A stretch of 40,136 nt of DNA. It comes from Chloroflexota bacterium. Its GTDB lineage: Bacteria > Chloroflexota > Chloroflexia > Chloroflexales > Roseiflexaceae. How positions within the stretch are numbered: position 1 is the stretch's first letter; the number at the start of each line of letters is the position of its first letter. Below are positions 29,625 to 39,834 of the stretch, piece by piece. The DNA lies in assembly GCA_018969485.1 (NCBI GenBank), contig JAGWYG010000024.1:1-40136 (forward strand), written 5' to 3'. The translations under genes and the position numbers were made by a program. The notes below the pieces were generated by a model. That model worked only from the letters and a program-made list of their open reading frames with translations. It was not told the origin of the DNA and searched no databases.

Positions 29625-29654
29625 TTGACAACGAACAGATGTTCCGATTATACT
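29625..29654 (+). promoter_or_regulatory. lexA promoter
   Basis: TTGACA (29625-29630) and TATACT (29649-29654) with an 18-base spacer, 47 bp before the lexA start. It is the best sigma70 promoter in the window, and an SOS box fills its spacer. Confidence 0.75.
29632..29645. promoter_or_regulatory. SOS box (LexA operator)
   Basis: CGAACAGATGTTCC matches the Gram-positive (DinR-type) LexA consensus CGAAC-RNRY-GTTYC at every position. It lies between the -35 and -10 of lexA, so LexA would block its own promoter. A further GAACAT half-site at 29618-29623 lies just upstream. Confidence 0.85.
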
Positions 29655-29700
29655 GCCACGAACGGCTGCAACAGTCGACGGTTCTGTGGAACAGGAGCCC

Positions 29701-30384
29701 ATGATGATCCCTGGCAGCGACCAGCGCCGACGGCGCTCCCGACGCAATCCCGAAAGCATCTCGCTGCGGCAGCGCGAGATGCTCGAATTCATCGAGCGGT
29801 ACAGTCAGGCTCACCAGTACGCGCCATCGATCCGCGACATCCGCGACGCGCTCGGCATCTCATCGACCTCGCTGGTCGCCTACCACCTCGACGTGCTCGA
29901 GGCGCGCGGCCTGCTGCGGCGCGGTGAGCGCACCTCGCGCGGCCTGTCGGTCGTCACCACCACGCCAGCCATCCATGCGCCGCAGGTCCGCTGGCTCGGC
30001 ACGCTGACGGCCGGCACGCCGCTCCCCGATCCCGAGGACACCAGCCACAGCGACACGACGGTCAGCGTGCCGGGCGATCTGTTCCCGGCCGAACGCCTGC
30101 AGTCGGTGTACGCGCTGACGGTACGGGGCAACTCGATGATCGACGCGCTGGTCGCCGATGGTGACACCGTGCTGGTGCGCTACCAGCAGACCGCCGACCG
30201 CGGCGACATCATCGTCGCGCGGCTGCGCCACGAGAACGCCTACACCCTGAAGCGCTACGAGCCCGAGGCGGGCGGTGCAGTCCGGCTGCAGCCGGCGAAC
30301 ACCACGATGGAGCCGATCATCACCACCGCCGAGAACCTCGACATCCAGGGCGTGATGGTGGGCGTGCTGCGGCGTACCGGCTGA
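29701..30384 (+). CDS. lexA: LexA repressor
   Basis: SOS master repressor of 227 residues. The N-terminal winged helix covers about 20-85 (QREMLEFIERYSQAHQYAPSIRDIRDALGISS). The self-cleavage site is Ala104-Gly105 (TLTAGTPL), with catalytic Ser145 (GNSMIDALV) and Lys184 (YTLKRYEP) of the S24 peptidase domain, all in canonical positions. A basic N-terminal extension (RRRRSRRN) precedes the DNA-binding domain. AGGAG lies 3 bases before ATG 29701 and 6 bases before the next ATG at 29704, so the protein may start at the second Met. It is autoregulated through the SOS box. It ends 17 bp from the convergent tyrosine phosphatase. Confidence 0.95.
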   Translation: MMIPGSDQRRRRSRRNPESISLRQREMLEFIERYSQAHQYAPSIRDIRDALGISSTSLVAYHLDVLEARGLLRRGERTSRGLSVVTTTPAIHAPQVRWLGTLTAGTPLPDPEDTSHSDTTVSVPGDLFPAERLQSVYALTVRGNSMIDALVADGDTVLVRYQQTADRGDIIVARLRHENAYTLKRYEPEAGGAVRLQPANTTMEPIITTAENLDIQGVMVGVLRRTG

Positions 30385-30401: not shown

Positions 30402-31115
30402 TCACGGCAGCAGCCGTGCCCGCAGCCTGGCGAGCGCCGCCGCGCTCATGCCGGCGCGCCCGAGGTACTGCTGCGCCGTCCCGTGATGCTGCACCAGATG
30501 CGCCAGCGTGTGATCCATCACCTCGGCGGGTGAGTCGAGTTGCGGCATGTACGCGGCGGGGCTCAGCCCGGGCGGGCGATCGTCCATCAGTTCATCGATG
30601 AGCGGCCCGATGCGCTGGCGGGTCAGGGCGTAGTCGGCCACGATCTCGTGATGTGGCACGCCGGCGAGATCGAGCAGCAGCGCCGACACGACGCCAGTGC
30701 GATCCTTACCGACGCGGCAGTGGATCAGCGCGCCGCCGTCATCGGCGAGGATTGCCTGCATCACCGCGGCGAATGCCGGCGCCGCATCGTCCAGCAGATG
30801 GCGATAGAATGGCACCAGCCCGCGCGGCCCGCTGCGCACCACGTCGGCCGGCGCCTCCAGCGGCACCGCATGCACCCGGAAGCGCGCGTCGCGCTCCAGG
30901 GGATTGGGCGCCGCGGCACGCTCGTGGGCATAGCGCAGGTCGATCACCTGACGAATGCCATGGTTCACCAGATCCAGCCGGCCGGCCTCACTGATGCGCG
31001 TCGGCGCGTCGCCACGAATCACCGCCCGCTGGCGCGTCGGCACTCCGGCACGGGTCGCCAGTCCGCCCAGGTCGCGAACATTCACCATGCCATCGATCGT
31101 CAGGTCGCGTGTCAT
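30402..31115 (-). CDS. Tyrosine-protein phosphatase (Y_phosphatase3 family)
   Basis: A 237-residue soluble phosphatase with the P-loop H-C-R-V-G-K-D-R-T-G (132-141; nucleophile Cys133, Arg139). The N-terminal NVRDLGGLATRAG is diagnostic of the bacterial PtpB/Siw14-like Y_phosphatase3 group, members of which act on phosphotyrosine, phosphoserine or phosphoinositides. The start at 31115 is set by GAGGAG (31121-31126) 5 bases upstream; the in-frame ATG at 31133 would contain that site. It has an extended -10 at 31145-31153 and directly upstream of that the PHO-box-like array, suggesting activation by an OmpR/PhoB-type regulator. Confidence 0.9.
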   Translation of the reverse strand: MTRDLTIDGMVNVRDLGGLATRAGVPTRQRAVIRGDAPTRISEAGRLDLVNHGIRQVIDLRYAHERAAAPNPLERDARFRVHAVPLEAPADVVRSGPRGLVPFYRHLLDDAAPAFAAVMQAILADDGGALIHCRVGKDRTGVVSALLLDLAGVPHHEIVADYALTRQRIGPLIDELMDDRPPGLSPAAYMPQLDSPAEVMDHTLAHLVQHHGTAQQYLGRAGMSAAALARLRARLLP

Positions 31116-31144
31116 CTCGGCTCCTCTGCTCATATCGCTGCACC

Positions 31145-31153
31145 ATCATACCA
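31145..31153 (-). promoter_or_regulatory. Extended -10 for tyrosine phosphatase
   Basis: TGGTATGAT on the minus strand, 30 bp before the start at 31115. The nearest GTTCAC unit of the direct-repeat array ends 10 bases upstream of the TATGAT hexamer. Confidence 0.6.
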
Positions 31154-31155
31154 GC

Positions 31156-31200
31156 CCTGCGTGAACAGACGATGAACCATCTGTGAATCATTGGTGAACC
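31156..31200 (-). promoter_or_regulatory. PHO-box-like array of four 11-bp direct repeats
   Basis: On the minus strand GTTCACC, ATTCACA, GTTCATC and GTTCACG follow one another at exactly 11-bp intervals (plus-strand TGAA words at 31162, 31173, 31184 and 31195). Actinobacterial PhoP binds 11-bp direct repeats with core GTTCACC, and PhoB/OmpR-type regulators in general use tandem 10-11-bp repeats. The array covers the -35 region of the tyrosine phosphatase promoter and extends upstream, as at activated promoters. Confidence 0.65.
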
Positions 31201-31218
31201 TGCGGACTGCTTGCCGCC

Positions 31219-31227
31219 TGGTATAGA
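31219..31227 (+). promoter_or_regulatory. Extended -10 for M16C peptidase
   Basis: TGGTATAGA, 53 bp before the start at 31281 and 18 bp beyond the direct-repeat array. Another instance of the TGGTA-type extended -10. Confidence 0.5.
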
Positions 31228-31280
31228 ATGATGAAAGGCTCCGCCCGGGCGCCGCTGGCGCTCCCGATGAGGACGAAACC

Positions 31281-34178
31281 ATGCACGCTGCCTTTGAGTT
31301 GACCCGTGAGCTCTGGATCGATGAACTCGGCGCGCCGGCGCAGCTCTATCGCCATCGGGCGACGGGTGCCGAGGTGCTCTCCATCAGCATCGCCGACGAG
31401 AACAAGGTGTTCGGCATCACGTTCCGCACGCCGCCTGCCGACTCGACCGGCATTGCGCACATCCTCGAGCATTCGGTGCTGTGCGGCTCGCAGAACTATC
31501 CGCTGAAGGAGCCGTTCGTCGAACTGCTCAAGAGCTCGCTGCAGACGTTCCTCAACGCGATGACCTATCCCGACAAGACGTGCTATCCGGTGGCGAGCCA
31601 GAACCTGCGCGATTTCTACAACCTCGTCGACGTCTATCTCGACGCCGTCCTGCGGCCGCGCCTCTCGCCCGACGTGCTGGCACAGGAAGGCTGGCATCTC
31701 GAGCCTGATCCGCAGGGTGATGGCGTCATCGTCAAGGGCGTGGTGTACAACGAGATGAAGGGCGTGTACTCGTCGCCCGATTCGCTGCATTATCGGGCGG
31801 TCCAGCGCTCGTTGTTCCCCGCTACCACCTATGGTGTGGATTCGGGTGGTGATCCGACGGCGATCACCGACCTCGGCTTCGAGCAGTTCGCCGCGTTCCA
31901 TGCCGCGTATTACCATCCGGCGAATGCACGGATCTTCTTCTACGGTGATGATCCGGTCGACGAGCGGCTGCGTCGGCTCGATGCCGCACTTCAGGGGTTT
32001 GGCCCGGCACCAGTCACGTCACAGATCGCCTGGCAACCGCCGTTCACTGCGCCACGCCGGATCGAGCAGAGCTACCCGGCACCCGCCGATGGCCCGACCC
32101 GCGGCATGCTCTCGCTCAGTTGGATGATCGGCCGGCCGGCGCCCGCCGAGCAGTTGCTGTGGGACGTGCTCGAGCACGTGCTGCTGGGCAGCAGCGTGGC
32201 GCCACTACGGCGTGCGCTGCTCGATTCGGGCCTGGGCGAGAACCTGACCGGCGCCGGATGTGGCGAACTGCTCCAGTGGTATTTCACCGTGGGCCTCAAG
32301 GGCGTCCCCGACGAACGCCTCGACGAGGTCGAGATGCTGATCCTGACGACGCTCGAGCAGTTGGTGCAGCAGGGCATCGATCCGGCACAGGTCGAGGCGT
32401 CGCTCAATACGATCGAGTTTCGCCTGCGCGAGAACAACACCGGCGGGTATCCGCGCGGGCTGGCGCTGATGCTGCAGAGCCTGCGCACGTGGCTGTACGG
32501 CGAGGATCCGCTCCTGCCGCTGCAGTACGAGGCGCCACTGGCGCAACTGCGCGCACGCCTGGCACAGGAGCCCCGGCTGCTCGAGCAGGTGATCGCGTCG
32601 CAATTGCTGGCCAATCCACATCGCACCACCGTGGTGTCGCGCGCCGATGCGGGATATGCCGCGCGCGTGCAGGACGCCGAGCACGCATGGCTCGCCGATG
32701 CCCGCGCGACGCTCGACGATGCGGGCATGGCGCAGTTGGCCGCGGCGGCCGAACGGCTGCGGGCGCTCCAGGCGCGCCAGGATCCGCCCGAGGTGCTGGC
32801 ACTGCTGCCGAGCCTGCGGCTGAGCGATATGACGCCGACCAGCACGAATACGCCGACGACCTACGAGACCCTCGCCGGCGTGCCGCTGCTGTGGCATCCG
32901 CTTGCCACCAATGGCATCGTCTATCTCGATCTGGCGTTCGACCTGACAGGACTGCCGGCGGAATTGCTGCCCTATGTCACCGTCCTCGGCCGGGCGCTGC
33001 TCGAGACGGGCGCTGGCGCGCTGTCGCGCACCCGCTTGACCCAGTGGATTGGCCGGGCGACTGGCGGCATCTGGGTGCAGCCGATCACCTCGGCGAGCCG
33101 TGACGGGGCGGCGCCGGTGGCGCGCTTCGTGATCCGCAGCAAGGCGACCGTCGCGCGCGTCGGCGAGTTGCTGGCGATCCTGCACGATGTCATCCACCAG
33201 GCGCACCTGGATGATCGCGAGCGCATCGGCCAGATCATCCGCGAGGAGAAGGCGTCGCGCGAGGCTGGCGTGCTGCCCGGTGGCCATTCGGTGATCAACG
33301 GCCGGCTGCGGGCCCGCTTCAGCGTGGCCGACTGGGTGGCCGAACAGCTCGCTGGCGTGTCGTTCCTCGAGACGGTGCAGCGCGATGCCGCCGGGTTCGA
33401 TGCGCACTGGCCACGCATTCATGCGGCGCTGGAGACGCTGCGTGCACAGTTGCTGACGCGCTCGCGGCTGATCATCAATCTCACGGCCGATGACGGCGGC
33501 CGTGCCGCCAGCGATGCGCCGCTCGCCACGCTTCTCGGCACGCTGCGCGACGACGCCCACGCGCCTCGCCAGGCTGCGTGGCAGGTGCTGGCCGAGCGCG
33601 CCCCCGAGGGCCTCGCCATCCCGGCGCAGGTCAACTATGTCGGCAAGGCCGCCGACCTCGCCGCGGCAGGCTACCGCTTCCACGGCTCGGCGCTGGTGGT
33701 GACGCGCTTCCTGCGCACTGCCTGGCTCTGGGAGCGCATCCGCGTGCAGGGGGGCGCGTACGGCGCCTTCAGTTCGTTCGACAGCATCTCGGGCGTGTTC
33801 AGTTTCTTGTCTTACCGCGATCCGAACCTGGCGGCGACCCTGGCGACGTATGATGCGACGGGGCAATTCCTGCGCGGGCTGGCGATCGACGACACGACGC
33901 TCGAGCGCGCGATCATCGCGACCATCGGCGATCTTGATGCCTACCAGTTGCCGGACGCGCGTGGTTTCAGTGCGCTGGTGCGCCATCTCAACGGAACCAG
34001 CGATGCCGCACGCCAGCACATCCGCGACGAGGTGCTCGGCACGACGGCCGCCGATGTCCGCGCATTTGCCGATCAGATGGACGTGGTGCGCGATGTCGGG
34101 CAGATCGTGGTGCTGGGCAGCGAGGCGACGCTCACGGCTGCCGCATTGCCCGGGATGCAGGTGCGCCGGTTGATCTGA
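31281..34178 (+). CDS. M16C zinc metallopeptidase (presequence protease/PreP-like)
   Basis: A 965-residue peptidase in which two M16 halves are joined in one chain. The inverted zinc motif is H60-I-L-E63-H64 (GIAHILEHSVLCGSQNYP), with the third ligand Glu158 in VVYNEMKGVYSSP. The second half ends with GGAYGAFSSFDSISGVFSFLSYRDPNL, the region that closes on the substrate. No signal peptide is present, so it probably degrades peptides in the cytoplasm. GAGGAC precedes the ATG. It is divergent from the tyrosine phosphatase across the PHO-box-like array. A hairpin follows directly after the stop. Confidence 0.94.
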   Translation: MHAAFELTRELWIDELGAPAQLYRHRATGAEVLSISIADENKVFGITFRTPPADSTGIAHILEHSVLCGSQNYPLKEPFVELLKSSLQTFLNAMTYPDKTCYPVASQNLRDFYNLVDVYLDAVLRPRLSPDVLAQEGWHLEPDPQGDGVIVKGVVYNEMKGVYSSPDSLHYRAVQRSLFPATTYGVDSGGDPTAITDLGFEQFAAFHAAYYHPANARIFFYGDDPVDERLRRLDAALQGFGPAPVTSQIAWQPPFTAPRRIEQSYPAPADGPTRGMLSLSWMIGRPAPAEQLLWDVLEHVLLGSSVAPLRRALLDSGLGENLTGAGCGELLQWYFTVGLKGVPDERLDEVEMLILTTLEQLVQQGIDPAQVEASLNTIEFRLRENNTGGYPRGLALMLQSLRTWLYGEDPLLPLQYEAPLAQLRARLAQEPRLLEQVIASQLLANPHRTTVVSRADAGYAARVQDAEHAWLADARATLDDAGMAQLAAAAERLRALQARQDPPEVLALLPSLRLSDMTPTSTNTPTTYETLAGVPLLWHPLATNGIVYLDLAFDLTGLPAELLPYVTVLGRALLETGAGALSRTRLTQWIGRATGGIWVQPITSASRDGAAPVARFVIRSKATVARVGELLAILHDVIHQAHLDDRERIGQIIREEKASREAGVLPGGHSVINGRLRARFSVADWVAEQLAGVSFLETVQRDAAGFDAHWPRIHAALETLRAQLLTRSRLIINLTADDGGRAASDAPLATLLGTLRDDAHAPRQAAWQVLAERAPEGLAIPAQVNYVGKAADLAAAGYRFHGSALVVTRFLRTAWLWERIRVQGGAYGAFSSFDSISGVFSFLSYRDPNLAATLATYDATGQFLRGLAIDDTTLERAIIATIGDLDAYQLPDARGFSALVRHLNGTSDAARQHIRDEVLGTTAADVRAFADQMDVVRDVGQIVVLGSEATLTAAALPGMQVRRLI

Positions 34179-34239: not shown

Positions 34240-35022
34240 CTAGATCGGCCCGTCGACCAGCCGGTGCAGCGTGCCGTCCTGCAGCGCCGCCGCCAGACCA
34301 GCCTCGAGCAGATCGGCGATGGCGCCGGCACGCGGCGCGAGCACGGCGATGGCCAGGTGCGTCAGCCGCTGCGCCGCCGCAGCGCGCGCCGCCGCATCGG
34401 CCGGCCCTTCGGCAAGGCCGAGGCACGCCAGCAGATCATCGCGATACCCGGGGCCACCGGGCAACGCCAGCGCCGTCGCCAGCGCCTCGCGCGGGGTATG
34501 CACCGGCGCCACCGGATGCGCCAGCGCCAGCAGCGCCGGCACGCGCAGCGCCACGCCCTGCGCCGCCAGCGCCACGCCCAGCGCATCGCCGCGGCGCCGC
34601 GCATTGCGCACCTTGGCGAACGCCTCCAGCAGATCCTGTAGCTGCGGCGCGGTGCGCCGCGCCCGGGTGATCCGCCCGGCCAGCGCGTGCGCCGCGTCCG
34701 GCGTGGCCCACAGCAGCCGCGCTACCTCGACCGACGGCAGGTACAGCGCCCAGGCGTCGGACTCACCCTCGGCATCGTCGATCCATTCCGCCAGCGTGGC
34801 CGTCTGGATGGTCGCGTGCAGCAGCCGACCGTCGGCGAGCGTCTCGAACGCGCTGCGGTACGGCCAGGCCGTGGCATCGGCGACCAGGACATCGAGGTCA
34901 AGATCGCTGTCGGGCTCGTGGGTGCCGCGGGCGAAGCTGCCGTGGCACAGGATGGCGCATGCCTGCGGCTGCTCGTGACGCAACCGCAGCACCCAGCGAT
35001 CGAACAGCGCTGTCTGATCCAT
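34240..35022 (-). CDS. Nucleotidyltransferase-domain protein (Pol beta superfamily)
   Basis: A 260-residue protein with an N-terminal minimal nucleotidyltransferase motif, C-H-G-S-F-A-R-G-T-H-E-P-D-S-D-L-D-L-D-V, with the Gly28-Ser29 turn and Asp40/Asp42 metal ligands. The rest is an alpha-helical, Ala-rich domain without a recognised family. Such proteins may adenylylate small molecules (kanamycin type) or proteins; no target can be named. GCAGGAG lies upstream of the ATG at 35022. It is the last gene of a minus-strand run and lies 46 bp after the flavin-reductase-like gene. Confidence 0.75.
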   Translation of the reverse strand: MDQTALFDRWVLRLRHEQPQACAILCHGSFARGTHEPDSDLDLDVLVADATAWPYRSAFETLADGRLLHATIQTATLAEWIDDAEGESDAWALYLPSVEVARLLWATPDAAHALAGRITRARRTAPQLQDLLEAFAKVRNARRRGDALGVALAAQGVALRVPALLALAHPVAPVHTPREALATALALPGGPGYRDDLLACLGLAEGPADAAARAAAAQRLTHLAIAVLAPRAGAIADLLEAGLAAALQDGTLHRLVDGPI

Positions 35023-35068
35023 GACTCGCTCCTGCATCCGCGCGCGGACGGCAGCGGCAGCCGTCGTA

Positions 35069-35677
35069 TCACCCGCCCGGCCGACGCAGCGTGAAGACCG
35101 CCCCCAGGCCGGCATAGTCGTCGCCGCCCAGCCGCGCCAGCGGGCGCAGCCGTGCCGCATCGACCAGGCCATCGTCGGCGCGCATCACGCCGGGCCGCAG
35201 GTGGATCTGCACAATCCGGCCCAGCACCATCGTGTAGCTGGCGTCGGGCACCGGTACCAGTTGCACCACCCGGGCCTCCAGCGCGATCGCCGCCTCGGCC
35301 ACGAATGGCGCCGCCACCAGCCGCGATGGCGCCCGGGTCAGCCCGGCCAGGGCAAATTCGTCGACATCTGCGCCGACATCGGCCGAGGTCTGATTCATCA
35401 CGGCCGCCAGCGACTCGTCGACGACGCTGAGCGTGAACCCCGGGACATCCTGGACGTTGCGCAGCGTATCTTTCGGCAGCATGCCGCGCCGCCCCACCGA
35501 CACCATCACCGTTGGCGGATCCCCGGCCACCAGGTTGTAGAACGAGAAGGGCGCCAGATTGACCATGCCGGCGGCCGACACACTGCCGACCCAAGCGATC
35601 GGCCGGGGGATCACGATGCTGGCGAGCAGCCGATAGGCGGCGCGCGGCCCGAGCGTGGCCGGATCGATCACGTGCAT
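35069..35677 (-). CDS. Flavin reductase-like FMN-binding protein
   Basis: A 202-residue protein of the flavoprotein oxygenase/DIM6-NTAB family: split-barrel FMN binding with the characteristic early segment ASIVIPRPIAWVGSVSAAGMVNLAPFSFYNLVAGDPP, followed by KDTLRNVQDVPGFTLSVVDE. It probably reduces flavin with NAD(P)H for a partner oxygenase or binds FMN structurally. The start at 35677 (MHVIDPATLG) has GAGG about 9 bases upstream; an upstream in-frame start at 35740 gives unlikely Arg/Cys-rich sequence and overlaps the preceding gene. It begins 10 bp after the membrane-protein stop. Confidence 0.85.
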   Translation of the reverse strand: MHVIDPATLGPRAAYRLLASIVIPRPIAWVGSVSAAGMVNLAPFSFYNLVAGDPPTVMVSVGRRGMLPKDTLRNVQDVPGFTLSVVDESLAAVMNQTSADVGADVDEFALAGLTRAPSRLVAAPFVAEAAIALEARVVQLVPVPDASYTMVLGRIVQIHLRPGVMRADDGLVDAARLRPLARLGGDDYAGLGAVFTLRRPGG

Positions 35678-36804: not shown

Positions 36805-39800
36805 TCAGCCGGGCGGATGGATGCTGGCCAGCGCTGCATCGATGGCGCGCAGCAGGTGCTGCCGGCCGGCCAGCACCGCCGCCGCACGCGCCGTGTGCAG
36901 CATCGCCCGCGCCTCGGCGTCCGGCAGGAGTGGCGCCAGCCAGCAGCGGATCTGTGTCGCCAGATGGCGCGTTCCCAGCGCGTCGGCCTGCGCCAGCGCG
37001 AGCGACAGCTGATGGATGGCGACATCGTTCGCGCCGCGCGCCAGCGCCAGGCGCCCCAGGTTGGCGGTCAGGCCGGCGATGCGTTCGGGCATGCCGAGCC
37101 GTTCGGCCAGCGCCAGGCCATGGTCGAACCAGCACGCCGCCGCGTCCAGCGCGCCGCCGGCGAGTGCGATCTCGCCCAGCGTGCTGAGCAGATACGGCTC
37201 CAGCCCGATCATGCCGGCATCGCGCGCCAGGCGCAGGCCGGCCTCAGCGGCATCATGGGCTGCGGCGTCCCCGAGCAGATGCAGATGATAGCCCGCATTG
37301 TTCGCCGCCAGGATGCGCCACATCAGCGCATGCACCGTCCCGCCGGCCGCCGCGTGCGCGGCAGCCTCGCGATACTGCGCCACCGCCTCGACCAACTTAC
37401 CCTGCTGGGCCAGGACGCTGCCGAGCTCGAAACACACCTGGGCGCGCACGACCGCATCGACCGCATCGGGGGTGGCGGCGGCGCGGGCAAAATGCTCGGC
37501 AGCAGCGGTCAGGTCGGCGCCCTCGAGCGACAGCGCTGCGCCCCACAGGATCTCGGCGCGCGCCAGCTCTGGCCCACCGCGGGCGACCAGCCGCGCGGCG
37601 ATGGCGGCTGCGTCGGCGAAGCGCGATTGCCCGAGCAGGGCGTGGCCCCACGCCAGCGCGGCCCGCGCCGCCGTGATGTGGTCGGCGCGGGCGTCGGCCA
37701 GCTGCCAGGCTTCTTCGAGCGTCTGGCTGGCAGCGCCATATGCTGCGGCGCCGATCTGTGCCTCGCCGAGCTCGAGCAGCAGTGCGGCGCGGTGCTCATC
37801 GGCCGTGCCGGCGAGCACCACGCGATAGGCGTCGATCGCGACATCCCACGCCGCCACGCCCACCGCCCGACGTGCCGCCAGCCGGGCCGCCCGCCCCGCC
37901 CGCTGCAGATCACCGGCGGCACGCCAGTGCTGCATGACCACCCCGGCGACCGGCTCCAGGTCGGTGTGCAGTGCCTCGAGCGCCGTCGCGATGTGCCGAT
38001 GGATGCTGCGCCGTCGCAGATCGCTGGTCTGATGCTGGATCACGGCCACGGTGAGCGCGTGATCAAAGGCATAATCGGTCGCACCACCGGTGCGCAGCAT
38101 GCCGTCGGCCAGCAGTTCATCGAGCGCATCGAGCACCAGATGCTCCTCGATGGTGGTCGCGCGCGCCAGCCAGAGGCCGTCAAAACGCGGCCCGAGCGCC
38201 GCCGCCACCTCGACGATGCGTCGTGCTGTCGCCGAGAGACGCGCGAGACGCGCCGCGACCAGCGCATGGACGGCGTCGGGGATCGCGAGCGCGTCATCGG
38301 CGAGCACGGCAGCGACGCCACGGTGCTGTGCGTGGCCGGCGAGGGCGACGAGGATCAGCGGGTTGCCCTCGGCGCGCCGGGCGAGCTGGTCGAGCGCGGC
38401 CGCTGGCGCGCCGGGCAACTGGGATGCGAGCACCTGATGGGCGGCGGCTGGTGGCAGTGGCTCGAGCGGCAGCGCGGTCAGCCGCCCCTGGCGCCGGGCC
38501 GTCTGGAGCACATCGGCCAGGGCTGCCGGCCACATCGCCACCGTCACGGTCATGACGACCGTCAGCACCGGGTCGCTGCGGCGCAGCAGCGCCGCGATGA
38601 AGCCGAGCGTGGCGTGATCGGCCCAGTGGGCATCATCGAGCACCCAGACCAGCGGCCGACCGGCGCCGATGATCCGGCAGGCCTGGGCCACCGCCTCGCG
38701 CATGCGCAGCTCGTCGGCGCGCCCGTCGCCATGCGATGGGCCTGCTGGCGCGAGCTCGGGCAGCAGGCGCGCCAGCTCGTGGCGCCACGCCGGCGCCAGC
38801 TCGCGTTCGAGGCGCGCGGCGTTCGTGTGGTCGCGCAGCAGCTCGCGCACCGCCTCGACGACGGGCTGGTAAGGCAGCGAGCGATCGAGCTCGCGGGCTG
38901 TGCTGCGCATCGTCAGTGCGAAGGGTTCGCGCACGGCCTCGTCAGCGAGGCGCGTCTTCCCGATGCCGGGTGGGCCACTGATCAGCGCAATGCCTCCGGT
39001 TCCCAGCACGGCGCGCAGCCGGGCGATCTCGGCGCTTCGCCCGACGAAGCGCGGCGCCGGCGGGCGGGCGCCGGCGTGGCGGACGACGCTGACGGGCGGA
39101 GGCGCGTCGGCCGGTGGCACACGGTCGGTCACGATGGCGTCGTACAGGGTGCGCGTCGTGGTGCTCGGCGGCACGCCCAGCGATTCACCGAGTGCATCGC
39201 GCAGGCGCTCGAACATGTGAATGGCGCTGGCGCGCTCGCCAAGCTGGTAGGCGAGCTGCATCGCCGCGCGCACGACATCCTCGCGCATGGGGTCGTGCGC
39301 GATGGCGCGCTCGAGCCAGGCGAGCGCCTGATGCACCCGGCCATCGCTGGCGGCGTGCTGGGCGACCACCACCATGCCATGCTGGATCTGGCGCGCACAG
39401 TGCTCGCGCTCCAGCGTGAGCCACGCATCAAACCGCGGGGCGGCCGCCAGCGTGACTCCAGCGAGCAGCTCACCCTGCACCGCATCAAGACACGCCGCCA
39501 GCGCCGTTGGGTCGGGCGCCCGCAGTGCGAGCAGCCGGTCGAGCGTGCGCCAATCGACTGCCACGTCCGCCGACAGGCCCAGCGATGCGTCATCGCCGTC
39601 GATCAGCGGGCCGAGTGCGCGCCGCAGCGTGTGGAGGGCCGAGCGGAGCTGCTGGAGCGCCATCGGCCGCTCGAGATCGGGCCAGAAGGTCGCCAGCACC
39701 TCGTCACGGGCGACGCGCCCACCCGGTGCCGCGAGCCGCCACAGGACGGCGCGCGTACGGCGGCGCGCGATGTCGATCACCACGCCATCGCGCAGGATGC

Positions 39801-39834
39801 GCGGCGGTCCCAGGAGTTCGAGGCGCACGGTCAT
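36805..39834 (-). CDS. SARP-like transcriptional regulator: winged helix, BTAD, AAA ATPase, TPR
   Basis: A 1009-residue multidomain regulator. Residues 1-95 form an OmpR-like winged helix of the SARP type (LELLGPPRILRDG, ARRRTRAVLWRLA, FWPDLERPMALQQLRSALHTLRRAL). A BTAD domain covers about 97-240. A STAND-type AAA ATPase follows: FVGRSAEIARLR (263-274), Walker A GPPGIGKT (287-294) and Walker B PLVWVLDDAHWAD. From about 600 on, the chain is helical TPR-like repeats with many Ala/Leu pairs. The ATPase-TPR part usually senses a ligand and the winged helix activates nearby genes; the target is unknown. YceI lies downstream on the same strand. The dispersed repeat lies upstream. Confidence 0.92.
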   Translation of the reverse strand: MTVRLELLGPPRILRDGVVIDIARRRTRAVLWRLAAPGGRVARDEVLATFWPDLERPMALQQLRSALHTLRRALGPLIDGDDASLGLSADVAVDWRTLDRLLALRAPDPTALAACLDAVQGELLAGVTLAAAPRFDAWLTLEREHCARQIQHGMVVVAQHAASDGRVHQALAWLERAIAHDPMREDVVRAAMQLAYQLGERASAIHMFERLRDALGESLGVPPSTTTRTLYDAIVTDRVPPADAPPPVSVVRHAGARPPAPRFVGRSAEIARLRAVLGTGGIALISGPPGIGKTRLADEAVREPFALTMRSTARELDRSLPYQPVVEAVRELLRDHTNAARLERELAPAWRHELARLLPELAPAGPSHGDGRADELRMREAVAQACRIIGAGRPLVWVLDDAHWADHATLGFIAALLRRSDPVLTVVMTVTVAMWPAALADVLQTARRQGRLTALPLEPLPPAAAHQVLASQLPGAPAAALDQLARRAEGNPLILVALAGHAQHRGVAAVLADDALAIPDAVHALVAARLARLSATARRIVEVAAALGPRFDGLWLARATTIEEHLVLDALDELLADGMLRTGGATDYAFDHALTVAVIQHQTSDLRRRSIHRHIATALEALHTDLEPVAGVVMQHWRAAGDLQRAGRAARLAARRAVGVAAWDVAIDAYRVVLAGTADEHRAALLLELGEAQIGAAAYGAASQTLEEAWQLADARADHITAARAALAWGHALLGQSRFADAAAIAARLVARGGPELARAEILWGAALSLEGADLTAAAEHFARAAATPDAVDAVVRAQVCFELGSVLAQQGKLVEAVAQYREAAAHAAAGGTVHALMWRILAANNAGYHLHLLGDAAAHDAAEAGLRLARDAGMIGLEPYLLSTLGEIALAGGALDAAACWFDHGLALAERLGMPERIAGLTANLGRLALARGANDVAIHQLSLALAQADALGTRHLATQIRCWLAPLLPDAEARAMLHTARAAAVLAGRQHLLRAIDAALASIHPPG

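Follow-up and report, generated by a model that had tools for sequence, protein, structure and literature searches.

A four-unit PHO-box-like array upstream of a predicted MptpB/LipA-type phosphatase gene in a Roseiflexaceae genome

A repeat array between divergent phosphatase and peptidase genes

The window, by which we mean the whole 40-kb stretch of DNA that was analysed, is contig C60 of a 4.02-Mb Chloroflexales genome in 247 contigs. In it, the genes for a phosphatase of the MptpB/LipA type and for a PreP-like M16C peptidase diverge from an intergenic region that holds an array of short direct repeats and two extended -10 elements (Table 1).

Table 1. Coordinates of the array, the promoter elements and the flanking genes in the window
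Feature	Position	Strand	Observation
Predicted PHO unit 1 (TTCAC, distal)	31194..31198	-	ATCAC in G001
Predicted PHO unit 2 (TTCAC)	31183..31187	-	TTCAC in G001
Predicted PHO unit 3 (TTCAT)	31172..31176	-	TTCAT in G001
Predicted PHO unit 4 (TTCAC, proximal, 10 bp before the -10)	31161..31165	-	TTTAC in G001
Extended -10 (TGG TATGAT), phosphatase promoter	31145..31153	-	12-bp block 31143-31154 identical in G001 (12/12)
Y_phosphatase3 (PF13350) gene, MptpB/LipA-type phosphatase	30402..31133	-	P-loop HCRVGKDRTG; likely true start ATG 31115
Extended -10 (TGGTATAGAAT) of the M16C gene, probably independent of the array	31219..31229	+	Equivalent CTGGTACAAT-type element in relatives
M16C (PreP-like) peptidase gene, divergent neighbour of the phosphatase gene	31281..34178	+	

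On the plus strand, the words GTGAAC, ATGAAC, GTGAAT and GTGAAC begin at 31161, 31172, 31183 and 31194, in exact 11-bp steps. Read on the minus strand, from 31198 down to 31161, they become TTCAC-TTCAC-TTCAT-TTCAC with the same exact period. Scored against four GTGAAC words, the array reaches 22/24 and the best non-overlapping place in the window reaches 16, which bears out the four GTTCA-type words at exact 11-bp spacing claimed in a preliminary description of this DNA. In the whole 4.02-Mb genome, the array is the sole place with three TGAA words at 11-bp steps. The proximal minus-strand TTCAC (31165-31161) is followed by GCAGGGCTGG, exactly 10 bp, and then by TATGAT (31150-31145); this hexamer is directly preceded by TGG and is thus read as the extended -10 of the phosphatase promoter. 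The 10-bp distance given in the preliminary description is therefore correct, as is its comparison with PhoB/PhoP-type promoters, because the PhoB boxes of Escherichia coli, built of 8-bp repeats with a 3-bp linker, also lie 10 bp upstream of a TAN3T -10 (PMC1906773). At the sequence level, the array has the features of a PHO box: four head-to-tail units with an 11-bp period, the final one 10 bp upstream of a TAN3T element.

The translated phosphatase contains the P-loop HCXXGKDR[TA]G that defines the atypical lipid phosphatases (ALPs; MptpB/LipA) (PMC3091653), here as HCRVGKDRTG, and it matches Mycobacterium tuberculosis PtpB in the solved-structure set. Translation more likely starts at the ATG at 31115, which opens MTRDLTIDG... 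and is closely preceded by GAGGAG; the annotated ATG at 31133 is disfavoured because it would leave a leader of only ~5 nt. No signal peptide was evident at the N terminus.

Beyond the M16C gene, positions 34240-35172 encode a nucleotidyltransferase that resembles ANT(4′)-II aminoglycoside enzymes but scores well below the curated cut-off, and a resistance function is not implied. Positions 36805-39834 encode a large SARP/AfsR-type regulator (BTAD + AAA ATPase).

PHO-box-like sites at phosphate genes of the genome

As a family-wide motif, the plus-strand word RTGAAY gave nothing coherent outside the window. The array was instead read as TT[A/C]AC on the minus strand, because the pst promoters of relatives carry TTAAC-type 11-bp repeats. 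With this pattern, without the -10 part, intergenic arrays were found upstream of several phosphate genes in the genome. The composite pattern TTMAY-N6-TTMAY-N6-TTMAY-N10-TANNNT was then run over the 4.02-Mb genome with ≤2 mismatches, with the backwards pattern as the control. Six matches were obtained, in a scan that was not fully blind, as the pattern had been refined to T[A/C] after the pst and phosphatase promoters of relatives were viewed. The window site was the sole perfect match (0 mismatches), and the backwards pattern had 0 matches in the genome.

One of the other matches lies upstream of a response regulator gene (G000:C79, ~25.2 kb) whose PhoB/RegX3-like product contains both a receiver and a winged-helix domain. 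Its best NCBIfam model is PhoB (8.2e-64, 215 bits, below the 296-bit cut-off), and among solved structures it matches M. tuberculosis RegX3 best (3.7e-52). No sensor kinase was found next to this gene, where one open reading frame was compared and had no match. Further matches lie upstream of phoU, the product of which is over the model cut-off; of a UDP-sulfoquinovose synthase gene, for which this is the best model by far (5.5e-144, below cut-off); and of a family-4 glycosyltransferase gene whose best models are lipid glycosyltransferases. The remaining match (L290, G000:C97:29736-29778) precedes a binding-protein gene; the models that fit its product best are those of 2-aminoethylphosphonate binders, which suggests that phosphonate use may be under phosphate control. 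A site at G001:C419:1780, in the sole other species of the genus, was put down to chance; the open reading frame that it overlaps has no family match.

A matrix was also trained on 11 sites, with no phosphatase promoter among them and with the genome's own pstS promoter left out. It scored the window site at 30.9 and the best unrelated place in the window at 6.2. The pstS promoter, which the pattern search had missed, was detected with a score of 21.2; its array (TTAAC/TTCTT/ATAAC/TATAC/TTCAC, then 10 bp, then GATGAT) is less regular than that of the window. The genome-wide search for further copies at phosphate genes that the preliminary description had proposed thus located the motif at phoU, the PhoB/RegX3-like regulator, the sulfolipid synthase, the phosphonate-type binding protein and, by the matrix, pstS. 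By sequence, the window array is the best-preserved predicted PHO box of this Chloroflexales genome.

A separate kind of array was seen in five Roseiflexus-group genomes (L299 (G003:C1:3608813-3608850), L264-L267 and L280). It consists of three to four TTAAC units at 11-bp steps and lies between convergent genes, which by eye are GH4-like and galT-like. Such arrays might flag a small RNA under phosphate control or a further operator.

Conservation in relatives

Conservation in relatives, which the preliminary description had set as a test of its reading, was seen both within the genus and beyond it. In G001, the four units read ATCAC/TTCAC/TTCAT/TTTAC, and the 10-bp spacing and TATGAT are kept. 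Between the two species, 21/24 positions of the array words and 12/12 of the extended -10 block are identical, against 4/13 in the gap beyond the array (ungapped comparison). The site at the regulator gene, with its 10-bp spacing, recurs in G001, G004, G006 and G012, as expected of an autoregulated regulator.

In genus g8, the matrix detected boxes at the phosphatase homologues of 8 of the 11 genomes. Six are strong (G018 23.2, G024 18.9, G014 17.3, G022 17.3, G011 17.2 and G025 15.5), each with p 0.003, the lowest value attainable with 300 shuffles, and two are weaker (G023 12.1 and G008 9.8, each with p 0.013). No box was present in the phosphatase copies scored from G020, G021 and G016. In the other genera tested, such as those represented by G002, G003 and G005, the matrix found no PHO box at the phosphatase homologues, and outside the boxed genera the homologue often follows an ABC transporter gene. 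Because the homologues lack a box in genera that have the gene behind an ABC transporter, the predicted Pho control of the phosphatase gene is taken to be lineage-specific.

Proposed mechanism and alternatives

We propose that the array is a PHO box, that is, a set of tandem head-to-tail sites, one per helical turn, for a response regulator of the PhoB/PhoP/RegX3 type. When phosphate runs short, the regulator, once phosphorylated, would occupy the four units at the usual -35 position and bring the housekeeping RNA polymerase to the TGG-TATGAT extended -10, and the divergent phosphatase gene (minus strand, 30402 to 31115 or 31133) would be turned on. We assign this mechanism as a whole, with the M16C gene probably a mere divergent neighbour, a probability of roughly 0.88; regulator binding, activation and the low-phosphate signal are inferred from the sequence.

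It is improbable that a different member of the OmpR family, for example one responding to envelope or osmotic stress, uses the same 11-bp geometry here and that the phosphatase answers a non-phosphate signal. Such a reading can draw on the similar tandem sites used by all OmpR/PhoB-family regulators, on the window units being all TTCAC-type, in contrast to the TTAAC of many pst boxes in the family, and on the C79 regulator scoring below the PhoB cut-off. However, TTCAC and TTAAC units are mixed inside single promoters of this same genome (phoU, the regulator gene and pstS), and all the other composite matches fit phosphate metabolism.

The preliminary description had the array controlling the phosphatase and/or the M16C gene, and the phosphatase half of that claim is the one that stands. 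The array faces the phosphatase gene, in which direction it scores 30.9, and copies occur at phosphate genes; towards M16C the score is 2.9. Wherever a boxed promoter was examined, the TT[A/C]AC words read along the coding strand of the gene that follows, and the window units face away from M16C. The M16C extended -10 (TGGTATAGA, 31219-31227) does have the array just upstream, at a distance that we measured as 19 bp rather than the 18 bp given before, and both -10 elements are kept in G001. Many Chloroflexales M16C genes, however, have a CTGGTACAAT-type extended -10 upstream and no array. Moreover, the phosphatase copies of other genera are not at an M16C locus, and those of g8 are still PHO-boxed there. 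Control of M16C as the main function of the array was rejected on unit orientation and on these array-less relatives with the same extended -10, and that the array mainly or also serves this gene is rather improbable. M16C is probably a divergent neighbour with its own promoter, on which the bound regulator may have a side effect. Relatives of the M16C protein include those of the Chloroflexota Chloroploca, Viridilinea and a Roseiflexaceae MAG. Across Chloroflexales, an M16C extended -10 of the form CTGGTACAATA was recorded upstream of the start codon at loci L006-L032, as well as at 31219-31229.

The alphaproteobacterial LexA site, GTTC-N7-GTTC, also has an 11-bp step. This sequence can be read on the minus strand of the array, and a lexA gene (29686-30384) lies 0.8 kb away. 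The lexA promoter itself, however, contains the palindrome GAACAGATGTTC (29633-29644) between TTGACA and TATACT, and because of this LexA here most likely recognises GAACN4GTTC. That motif is absent from the array, and an SOS operator was rejected as a very remote prospect. In its own right, GAACAGATGTTC is an ordinary GAACN4GTTC SOS box, and LexA autoregulation in this lineage probably uses a palindrome of the Gram-positive type. A chance repeat without function is just as remote: although comparison within the genus could draw on a single further genome (n = 1), the composite pattern with ≤2 mismatches occurred 0 times in 156.6 million simulated positions (second-order Markov, ~19 genome equivalents), it is linked with phosphate genes genome-wide, and the array words are conserved where the adjacent gap is not.

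Discussion

The phosphatase most likely belongs to a classic Pho regulon, together with phosphate-uptake and phosphate-sparing genes, because TTMAC-type units with 10-bp spacing also precede phoU, the regulator gene, the sulfolipid synthase, the glycosyltransferase, the phosphonate-type binding protein and pstS. We found no published Pho regulon of Chloroflexales in the literature searched. The array is most likely a control site of a known kind, but the gene that it would govern is unusual and the group has been little studied.

Each known Pho system resembles this predicted one in part. The preliminary description had equated the core of the array with the actinobacterial PhoP repeat, and GTTCACC, the core of the direct-repeat units in the Streptomyces PhoP PHO box (PMC4415409), indeed matches the distal unit of the array exactly; both systems also have direct repeats with an 11-bp period. 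Unlike in Streptomyces, the units of this regulon can be TTCAC or TTAAC, giving a broader family-level motif of TT[A/C]AC, the boxes end 10 bp before a -10-like hexamer, and the organism belongs to the phylum Chloroflexota. Cyanobacterial SphR boxes (three or more copies of CTTAACCT, 8 bp plus a 3-bp linker; PMC1906773) have the same period and repeat number of at least three, and their TTAAC variant appears at the pst and regulator promoters of the family, whereas the window array is TTCAC-type in all units. From the E. coli PhoB boxes, with which it shares its repeat arrangement and spacing, the array differs in its core and in having four units. The likeness to RegX3-type regulators lies in the best solved-structure match of the C79 regulator.

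The phosphatase resembles the MptpB/LipA ALPs in its P-loop, its Pfam family (Y_phosphatase3) and its PtpB structure match. It differs from them in having no evident signal peptide, in its predicted link to the Pho regulon and in the genome from which it comes, where inositol-1-phosphate synthase (PF01658) was undetected. This synthase was undetected in both g1 genomes and in all eleven g8 genomes, g1 and g8 being the two genera with boxed phosphatase copies; that the genomes are drafts is a caveat on absence. It was found in several of the family's other genera. This distribution follows the division of the phosphatase copies into PHO-boxed and unboxed ones. Because the synthase was undetected in g1 and g8, the phosphatase of these genera is unlikely to act on an inositol lipid or phosphoinositide of the cell's own making.

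These observations give the lineage a predicted PHO box, in which TT[A/C]AC units recur every 11 bp and end 10 bp before the -10, together with a first regulon that would cover phosphate sensing, phosphate uptake, phosphonate-type uptake and the synthesis of phosphorus-free lipids. Predicted phosphate control of a bacterial MptpB/LipA-type phosphatase suggests a nutritional role in a family studied mostly as virulence factors. We tentatively suggest, as a possibility with the odds somewhat against it, that in two Roseiflexaceae genera a predicted cytoplasmic MptpB/LipA-type phosphatase has joined the Pho regulon beside genes for sulfolipid and glycolipid synthesis. Its substrate would probably not be a cell-made inositol lipid, and it might free phosphate from another phosphomonoester or lipid intermediate of the cell during membrane remodelling. 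If true, this would give a virulence-associated enzyme family a physiological role in free-living bacteria.
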